The position numbers and the translations under genes are program-made. Positions 23,687 to 25,946 of a stretch of DNA of 64,000 bases are shown here, one piece after another; position 1 is the stretch's first letter, and each line of letters opens with the position of its first letter. Under the pieces are notes generated by a model. That model saw nothing but the letters and a program-made list of their open reading frames with translations, did no database searches and had not been told where the DNA came from. Origin of the DNA: Caviibacter abscessus (GTDB lineage: Bacteria; Fusobacteriota; Fusobacteriia; Fusobacteriales; Leptotrichiaceae); assembly GCF_001517835.1 (NCBI RefSeq), contig NZ_LOQG01000036.1, positions 62,001 to 126,000 on the forward strand, in the 5' to 3' direction.

Positions 23687-23715
23687 AAAAAAAGCCTGTT
23701 TTTGCAGGCTTTTAT
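23686..23715. terminator. Bidirectional terminator between symporter and adhesin genes
   Basis: AAAGCCTG pairs with CAGGCTTT around TTTTTG, with A and T tracts on both sides. It serves the plus-strand symporter and overlaps the stop codon of the minus-strand adhesin gene. Confidence 0.85.
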
Positions 23716-25901
23716 TTAATTATTATTTCAACTCTTCTATTTGAAGCTAAATTTTTATTCACTTTATTATTATATCCAAAACTTGATACTTTTCTTATAT
23801 TTTGCGGATTTTTAAGTCCTAATTTAATCATTAAATCAACAATTTTATTTGCTCTTTTAAGTCCTAAATCAAGATTATACTTTTCATTTGCATTTGTATC
23901 AGTATGTCCTGTTATATCTATTATTCTATCTGAATATTTTTCATTTATTTCTTTTATAATTGCTTTTAATTTTTCTATTTGTGTATTTTTAGGAACATAT
24001 TTATCATTAGTAAATTGATCTATTACATATAGCTTTTCTTCAAATTTACTTGTTTTAATACTTTTAATTTCTTCTCTTAATTCATTTATTTCATTTTTTA
24101 ATTTATTAAATTCTTCTCTATCAGCCATTACATAAGATTGATTTGATGAAATAGCAGGTTTTGCTAAGTTTCCAAAATTTGCATTTATTCCGGCTCCAAC
24201 TACAAAATCTTTTCTAGTATCTATTCCTGCACTTAGCTTATATACTATTCTTCTACTTGGCTCAGTTCCACTTATTCCTAGTGCAAAACCACCTTGTTTA
24301 TTATAATAAGCAGCTCCAAATCCTATAGAAACTAATCTACCTTCTCCTACTTGAGGTATATTTGCCATTGCAGATGCTGTTGCAATTCCTCCACTTAAAT
24401 CTTTTCTTAGCTCTTTTATTTGATAAAAGTTAACGGCATCTGTATCTTCTGTACCTGCTACTACATTTGTAATTTTTTGATTATTTGCATTTAATCCCGT
24501 ATCCCCTATATATTTTTTTCCATTATAACTAACACCATTATTATCAATAGTTGTATTTCCTGTTTTTACACTGTCAAACTCAGGTTTTTCAGACATTTGA
24601 ATTTTTAATACATTTGATTCTATTTTTGTTTTTATATTTTTAGAACTTGCGTTGTTTCCACTATAGTCACCTTTTATTGTAAATGTATCTCCTAAGGCTA
24701 CAGTATGTTCAATACCTTCATTAGCTGCAAATTTTAATCCCTTTTCTGCTAAGTTTTTTAATTGTCCTTCTGTTGCAGCTCTACTTTCATCTACATTACT
24801 TTTATCCCAAGTTGTATTTTTAAGTCCTGTTATTTCAGCTTTTACACCGTCAACTTTGACTTTTCCAACTTGTACATTTCCTTCCTGACCATTTAATTTT
24901 ACTTGTTTTTCAGTATCTGAACCTAATGTTATTGTATCTTTAAGTTTTACTTTTATCTCACTATCTGTAACTTCAGTTTCTGTATTTTTATCATCTCCTG
25001 AAATAGTTAAAGACTTATTATTATTAATTGTCCCTTTCATATTTTTCATATACTCATATACAGTTTTACCTGTTACAAAATCTGTATTATTTTCTTCAAT
25101 ATTTCCATTACCTAATGTCTTTTTCCAATTTTCTTTGCTAAAACCAGTTGCTTTTTCAGGATCATTTGCTAATTTATGTAATTGAGAACCTGTTACAGCA
25201 TCGTGCGAACCGTCTTTTATTTCCCCGTCTTTAAGATTAACTAATTTTCTTTCAGAACCTGATTTACCAATTGATAACGCATTTGTAACTGCTTCTGATT
25301 CCTTACCTAATACAATCGCATCTTTTACACCTGTATTGGCTATAATTTTTTCACCAAAAGCATAAATATCGTGTCCTGAATTGCTATCATTTCCTTCATT
25401 TATTTTATGATTATTACCAATAATATATGAATTACTACCATTTAATATATTATTAATACCCATAACTCCAGAATAATTACCTTTTATCTTATTACTTTTA
25501 CCAAATGCACTATTATCATGCCCTTCTATTTTATTAGCTTCTCCAAATACATAATTATTATTGCATTTTTCACCTATTTTATTTATATCTTTACATTCTC
25601 TATTTTCTTCATTTACTTTATTATTATTACCTATTGTATAAGAATTTCCTGCGTATAATACGTTATTTAATCCAACCGCTCCTGAATATGGTCCATATAT
25701 TATATTTCCTTTTCCAAAAGCACTACTTGCTTGTCCATTAATTTTATTATTTTCTCCAAAAACCTGTACTTCAGTATCACGAGCAGTCATACTGGAATTT
25801 TTCTCTATTCTATTACTGGTTCCCTGATTTGTTTCTGCATAAACTAAAGATGACGCAAATAAAAGTATTGCTACTTTTTTAAAGTTAAGATTTTTAAACA
25901 T
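23712..25901 (-). CDS. YadA-like trimeric autotransporter with C-terminal OmpA domain
   Basis: About 729 residues from ATG at 25901 (a TTG frame extends 6 codons further but has no better signal). Signal peptide MFKNLNFKKVAILLFASSLVYA. The head has repeated YadA/Hep_Hag motifs (SSAFGKGN, SGAVGLNN, SYTIGNNN, SAFGKSNK, SGVMGINN). A stalk with HIM/TAA connector segments (GSQLHKLAN, NVVAGTEDTDAVN) follows, then the YadA membrane anchor (ASAMANIPQ to VVGAGINANFG). Unusually the chain does not stop at the anchor. A coiled coil (KLKNEINELREEIKSIKT) and a periplasmic OmpA-like peptidoglycan-binding domain follow, with GHTD, LGLKRANKIV and NRRVEIIIK. It is thus a trimeric surface adhesin probably tied to the cell wall. 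Adhesive function is inferred from family. Confidence 0.92.
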   Translation of the reverse strand: MFKNLNFKKVAILLFASSLVYAETNQGTSNRIEKNSSMTARDTEVQVFGENNKINGQASSAFGKGNIIYGPYSGAVGLNNVLYAGNSYTIGNNNKVNEENRECKDINKIGEKCNNNYVFGEANKIEGHDNSAFGKSNKIKGNYSGVMGINNILNGSNSYIIGNNHKINEGNDSNSGHDIYAFGEKIIANTGVKDAIVLGKESEAVTNALSIGKSGSERKLVNLKDGEIKDGSHDAVTGSQLHKLANDPEKATGFSKENWKKTLGNGNIEENNTDFVTGKTVYEYMKNMKGTINNNKSLTISGDDKNTETEVTDSEIKVKLKDTITLGSDTEKQVKLNGQEGNVQVGKVKVDGVKAEITGLKNTTWDKSNVDESRAATEGQLKNLAEKGLKFAANEGIEHTVALGDTFTIKGDYSGNNASSKNIKTKIESNVLKIQMSEKPEFDSVKTGNTTIDNNGVSYNGKKYIGDTGLNANNQKITNVVAGTEDTDAVNFYQIKELRKDLSGGIATASAMANIPQVGEGRLVSIGFGAAYYNKQGGFALGISGTEPSRRIVYKLSAGIDTRKDFVVGAGINANFGNLAKPAISSNQSYVMADREEFNKLKNEINELREEIKSIKTSKFEEKLYVIDQFTNDKYVPKNTQIEKLKAIIKEINEKYSDRIIDITGHTDTNANEKYNLDLGLKRANKIVDLMIKLGLKNPQNIRKVSSFGYNNKVNKNLASNRRVEIIIK

Positions 25902-25946
25902 CTCTACACGCCCTTTCAATTCTTATATATTTAAATTTTTATTTTA

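Follow-up and report, generated by a model that had tools for sequence, protein, structure and literature searches.

A gene of Caviibacter abscessus raises the question of what role could be served, in a trimeric autotransporter adhesin (TAA), by an OmpA-like domain placed behind the membrane anchor. The gene is a single uninterrupted open reading frame at 25901..23712 on the minus strand of the window, by which we mean the whole stretch of 64,000 nucleotides that was analysed, and its translation is a protein of 729 amino acids. It starts with an ATG at 25901, with an in-frame TTG further out at 25919, and the stop codon occupies 23714..23712. Between this gene and its convergent neighbor, which end at 23712 and 23686 respectively, an inverted repeat (aaaagcctg ... 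caggctttt, window 23690-23713) has the look of a terminator that serves both directions. The parts of the protein are encoded as follows.

25836..25901, minus strand: apparent signal peptide, residues 1-22, ending ...SLVYA (translation read by eye)
24477..25835, minus strand: passenger, residues 23-475; short repeats resembling those of heads lie towards the N-terminus (by eye)
24372..24476, minus strand: best stretch of YadA_stalk (PF05662), residues 476-510 (Pfam)
24174..24356, minus strand: YadA membrane anchor, residues 516-573 in Pfam, extended to F576 (Pfam, predicted fold, match to Hia)
24042..24173, minus strand: linker and heptad-patterned helix, residues 577-620, presumably periplasmic (model, heptad test)
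23715..24041, minus strand: OmpA-like domain, residues 621-729 (Pfam, predicted fold, solved matches, ligand residues)
23898..23900, minus strand: codon of D668, putative counterpart of Acinetobacter baumannii OmpA D271 (motif and spacing)
23853..23855, minus strand: codon of R683, putative counterpart of A. baumannii OmpA R286 (motif and spacing)

The N-terminus carries an apparent Sec signal peptide, as judged by eye, and Pfam recognizes three domains in the order YadA_stalk (53 bits against a cut-off of 28.4 for the best stretch), YadA_anchor (27.2 bits against 22.7) and OmpA (residues 630-723, 45.4 bits against 27.2), all above their curated cut-offs. The stalk preceding the anchor, a feature of type Vc autotransporters, is thus present, and family models of TAAs match the protein between residues 208 and 543, at scores far under their cut-offs. 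A first-pass annotation had proposed that an OmpA domain follows the anchor, an architecture that is borne out by this domain order, by the predicted fold, by five paralogues in the same genome and by fusions in two more genera.

Structure prediction was carried out for residues 479-729 only, as a single chain and from 19 aligned sequences. The model has a mean pLDDT of 78.2 and a pTM of 0.44, the latter value meaning that the relative placing of its domains is unreliable. It contains a helix (492-513) and four strands (524-533, 536-546, 552-561 and 566-574), followed by a low-confidence linker (580-593), a second helix (595-617) and an OmpA-type fold from residue 623. Foldseek searches of solved structures matched the Hia anchor 2gr8 (TM 0.88 of the target, rmsd 1.6) and likewise Hia 3emo, and a profile of 19 fusion tails reaches within one residue of the end of the solved Hia anchor. 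As modeled, the protein therefore has the helix plus four strands that mark a type Vc anchor in Hia, and the predicted anchor is a complete one of the YadA/Hia type, its last strand ending at F576. The possibility that the apparent anchor is not a beta-barrel segment, one of two findings that the first-pass annotation had named as fatal to its proposal, is rejected on the sequence, the predicted fold and the solved Hia match.

F576 is the counterpart of the last residue in classical TAAs, whose chains stop at the anchor, and it is followed by 153 further residues. Examples of such classical ends are ...GYEF in two proteins of genome G012 (identical over the stretch read) and ...NMQF in a short TAA on a contig labeled Rickettsiales, which was the one locus found when genome contigs were scanned with the 729-residue protein alone. 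In the topology of Hia and YadA the end of the last strand faces the periplasm, so the chain past the anchor would need no further membrane crossing, which speaks against the second of those objections, that the chain could not pass to the periplasm.

In the extension, a linker (577-594) leads to a heptad-patterned helix (595-617), which is followed by the OmpA domain (621-729). Hydrophobic residues occupy the a and d positions of the helix (F598, L601, I605, L608, I612 and I615), and when residues 577-620 were shuffled 2000 times, only 0.1% of the shuffled sequences reached the heptad pattern of the original, in keeping with the coiled coil that had been suggested after the anchor.

The best Foldseek hit of the model is 3td5, the OmpA domain of A. 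baumannii with a peptidoglycan pentapeptide. A second aligner, by which the anchor part was barely tested, returned solved OmpA domains at Z scores of 16.5 and below, with 3td5 at 15.3; these matches and the Pfam score together argue that the predicted domain has an OmpA fold. In A. baumannii OmpA, D271 and R286 are reported to bind diaminopimelate (PMC6572160). D668 and R683 stand 15 residues apart, equal to the spacing of that pair, and would supply the Asp and Arg that contact diaminopimelate. An Asp/Arg pair at the ligand spacing is found in all 39 listed fusions, and also in 26 of 27 OmpA sequences that lack an anchor in the same frame (L020_4 being the exception). This conservation suggests that the OmpA domain binds diaminopimelate-type wall stems through D668 and R683. 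Diaminopimelate epimerase scores above cut-off in all five genomes tested, that of C. abscessus among them. This leaves room for the usual ligand to be present, although the enzyme, which also serves lysine synthesis, does not show wall composition.

The domain-architecture search that the first-pass annotation had recommended, for YadA_anchor followed by OmpA, was productive. A profile search of 98 Fusobacteriota genomes gave at least 39 joint, in-frame matches, found among the matches listed in seven genomes and three of 29 genera; six of those listed belong to the C. abscessus genome and 33 to six others. The weakest listed fusion has an E value of 4e-38, and matches were listed down to about 2e-21, so very divergent fusions could lie beyond this range. 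Nineteen plasmid records match the 729-residue protein, but in no record does a single place cover 80% of the query; the 15 that are listed align with either the anchor or the OmpA portion, and with no more than 43% of the query.

A closer census covered ten genomes of the family, in which there are 58 OmpA matches and 124 anchors, two of the latter scoring below the Pfam cut-off; an anchor was counted as accompanied when OmpA lay within 700 nucleotides downstream on the same strand. In C. abscessus (G000), which has a genome of 1.219 Mb and is described, at 1.22 Mb, as having the smallest of its family (PMC5093955), all six YadA anchors are followed by OmpA in frame. The proportions elsewhere are 6 of 8 in G003, 10 of 12 in G012 (nine in frame), 4 of 15 in G005, 10 of 24 in G014, 3 of 15 in G018 (two in frame), 2 of 9 in G022, 0 of 20 in G004 and 0 of 15 in G013, while G001 has no anchor. 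The two genomes with anchors and no OmpA fusion, G004 and G013, are Sneathia-like, 1.3 Mb in size, and contain one OmpA-domain match each. Contig C1 of G012 (1.34 Mb) holds open frames of 4700 to 5737 amino acids with anchor and OmpA, which, as read from these frames, are very large adhesins in a small genome. At another site (L095:256-3333) three similar genes are adjacent; two of them have an OmpA domain at the C-terminus and the third, by eye, has none, and these are possibly tandem duplicates.

An assembly or frame accident could in principle join a TAA to an adjacent ompA gene, and anchors with out-of-frame OmpA neighbors do exist in G012 and G018. The six in-frame copies in this genome and the 33 in six others make such an accident so improbable that we reject misassembly and frame slip on the strength of at least 39 in-frame copies in seven genomes. 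The out-of-frame pairs themselves (G012:C1:441177-441786 and G018:C101:6342-6988), each on one strand, are probably broken fusions.

Anchors without OmpA provide a comparison within the same protein family. We examined 37 of them, comprising 14 of 14 in G014, 18 of 20 in G004, two of two in G003, two of two in G012 and one in G029; the remaining two of G004 and those of G005, G013, G018 and G022 fall outside this survey. A tail of 24 to 74 residues follows the anchor in 35 of the 37, and only two stop at the anchor. By their heptad scores, 3 to 6, the tails resemble coils, but taken one by one only 11 of 35 do better than shuffled versions of themselves at p<=0.05, with a median p of 0.10, and the test is weak for any single tail. 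These sequences suggest that a tail past the anchor is common in this TAA family and that OmpA is present in some genera. The statement of the first-pass annotation that YadA-type proteins normally end at the anchor therefore holds for classical TAAs and fails for most of these relatives. The 729-residue protein itself departs from a usual, though not strict, trait of type Vc, an anchor at the extreme C-terminus; we keep it in the type because these 35 relatives and the Veillonella TAAs also run past the anchor.

The OmpA tail might instead serve mainly in biogenesis, holding or trimerizing the chain in the periplasm during export, with wall binding incidental. A role of this kind has been proposed for SadB, which aids SadA export, and is one possible role of TpgA, whose loss is reported to lower surface display of the adhesin AtaA (PMC8151025). 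However, the ligand residues retained in all of the listed fusions would be needless for a pure chaperone, and OmpA-less relatives in the same genomes, which are presumably exported, have a short tail only. We consider this explanation improbable.

Another view is that the fusions are mainly envelope stabilizers, that is, tethers between outer membrane and wall in the manner of OmpA or OmpM, for which adhesion is secondary. Of nine OmpA-domain matches in the 1.2 Mb C. abscessus genome, six are on TAAs; the remaining three belong to frames of 350-398 amino acids in which no lipobox is seen by eye, so there is no short Pal-type lipoprotein among the nine. This distribution would favor a tethering role, as would the existence in relatives of short versions with little passenger. 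On the other hand, the three other OmpA-domain proteins could do the tethering, and one of the two that were scanned matches the barrel model OMP_b-brl weakly (21.9 bits, cut-off 28.7). Moreover, the fusion frames extend to 5737 amino acids, far beyond the needs of a tether, and the Sneathia-like genomes with 15 and 20 anchors manage with no fusion. Stabilization as the main function is therefore unlikely in our judgment.

The short fusions in question are L055:905-1846 (G014, 314 amino acids), L096:305-1405 (G014, 367 amino acids) and L115:180-1295 (G005, 372 amino acids), all from Streptobacillus-like genomes. Their OmpA domain is clear and the anchor weak, at 26.2 bits in L055 and 21.9 in L096 against a cut-off of 22.7. 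Judged from these sequences, they are possibly tethers without a fiber.

The history of the fused modules was approached through a tree of 36 distinct fused OmpA domains, built on 113 columns only and having long branches. One supported clade takes in 33 of the domains as well as L137 and L138, which come from frame-broken TAAs; L125, L126 and L135 lie outside it. A single clade for all fused OmpA domains was not rejected (p 0.217; 0.27 without L135), so that repeated grafting of OmpA onto TAAs may be considered beside a single origin. Within C. abscessus, the paralogue L038 (G000:C38:80000-85033) matches L039 and L041 at 90-92% in the anchor but at only 37-39% in the OmpA domain, a disparity that points to module exchange, and the modules appear to have been exchanged at the linker.

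The explanation that we prefer, with a probability of about 0.8, is that the protein is a type Vc adhesin to which peptidoglycan-binding domains are covalently joined in the periplasm, where they tie the surface fiber to the wall. The chain would be exported by Sec by way of its signal peptide and, as in the TAA family generally, would be inserted with the assistance of BAM as a trimer whose passenger is exported. Each chain would contribute its four predicted strands to a shared outer-membrane barrel, the last ending at F576 on the periplasmic side. A flexible linker would follow, and then helix 595-617, whose heptad pattern suggests that it holds the three tails together. Provided that the protein trimerizes as other TAAs do, there would be three OmpA domains per trimer, and these, given the conservation of D668 and R683, would bind diaminopimelate-type wall stems. 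The likely benefit would be a load-bearing, non-covalent link between fiber and wall that resists pulling out of the adhesin and that would also help to hold the outer membrane to the wall. Trimerization, wall binding and load bearing are thus what we infer for the 729-residue protein.

A bolder version of this proposal, which we regard as doubtful, is that all six Caviibacter adhesins double as wall tethers and take over much of the holding of outer membrane to wall, so that force on the fiber passes straight to the wall. If this were true, one trimer of each of the six adhesins would provide eighteen wall-binding domains in a reduced genome, and in Streptobacillus-like genomes the relatives that have little passenger would represent this machine pared down to a tether alone.

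The architecture is already in print. Eight TAAs of Streptobacillus moniliformis ATCC 14647 are described as having an additional OmpA domain at the extreme C-terminus, for which wall attachment was proposed (Bechon et al. 2020, PMC7549365), and the Caviibacter protein, which likewise has PF03895 and, behind it at the C-terminal end, PF00691 within a single chain, is a further example. It differs in belonging to another genus and in that OmpA accompanies every anchor of its genome, as opposed to 10 of 24 in the Streptobacillus-like G014. The ten in-frame fusions of G014 (eight with open frames of 607 to 2097 amino acids and two of 334 and 367) were set beside the eight published S. moniliformis genes by number, not gene by gene. 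Among the papers listed by our literature searches on the architecture, whose scope took in few subscription papers, there was no second report of TAA-OmpA fusions, and PMC5093955 contains no occurrence of YadA, OmpA or autotransporter. The present sequences extend the architecture to two further genera and to a genome, that of Caviibacter, in which every anchor is fused; they also show that the ligand residues are conserved, that most relatives lacking OmpA have a tail, and that there are signs of exchange between modules.

TAAs of Veillonella and other Negativicutes are reported to carry SLH domains or a coil past the anchor, and coil tails occur in Fusobacteria TAAs too; the effect of such extra C-terminal domains on function, exposure or membrane stability is given as unknown (PMC7549365). 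The plan of an anchor followed by a presumed wall-binding part is the same, but SLH or a coil alone stands where the Caviibacter protein has OmpA. The inverse autotransporters YeeJ and intimin, which are not trimeric, resemble it as adhesins with a peptidoglycan-binding domain and differ in that this domain, LysM, precedes the barrel. Binding of peptidoglycan by the LysM domain was reported from pull-down experiments (PMC5595812). Deinococcus SlpA (PMC9388160) and OmpM of diderm Firmicutes (PMC10628300) likewise combine an outer-membrane barrel with wall-binding domains, and SlpA has a homotrimeric coiled coil; in both, however, the domains are SLH, the barrels of SlpA are large, and the published accounts call these proteins connectors or tethers and not adhesins.

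Among systems known to work, the nearest by analogy is the AtaA-TpgA pair of Acinetobacter, where TpgA, a separate periplasmic protein, is described as binding both the TAA AtaA and the wall (PMC8151025). Residues 610-700 reach 30.6 bits with the TpgA family model, far under its cut-off of 350, and lie inside a TAA chain, which sets the Caviibacter segment apart from the TpgA family. Models of other OmpA-type lipoproteins score higher (YiaD 44.5, PA1041 38.6, YfiB 36.8 and Pal 36.2 bits), so it is in arrangement, and not by closest descent, that the segment resembles TpgA. In simulations, TpgA-N is reported to about double the peak extraction force of AtaA, and formation of the periplasmic complex alone, without the wall, already reinforces the AtaA anchor (PMC13082670); wall binding might thus not be the main effect. 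If wall binding by the Caviibacter protein is real, the fusion offers a natural one-chain test both of the role of wall-binding domains placed behind a YadA anchor (PMC7549365) and of how large adhesins resist extraction (PMC13082670). Since single genomes contain versions with an OmpA tail as well as versions with a short one, the tails can be compared within one family. In the Acinetobacter pair, as is proposed for the Caviibacter protein, the barrel of a TAA is connected in the periplasm with a part that binds peptidoglycan; Acinetobacter uses two proteins for this, and Caviibacter would use one chain.
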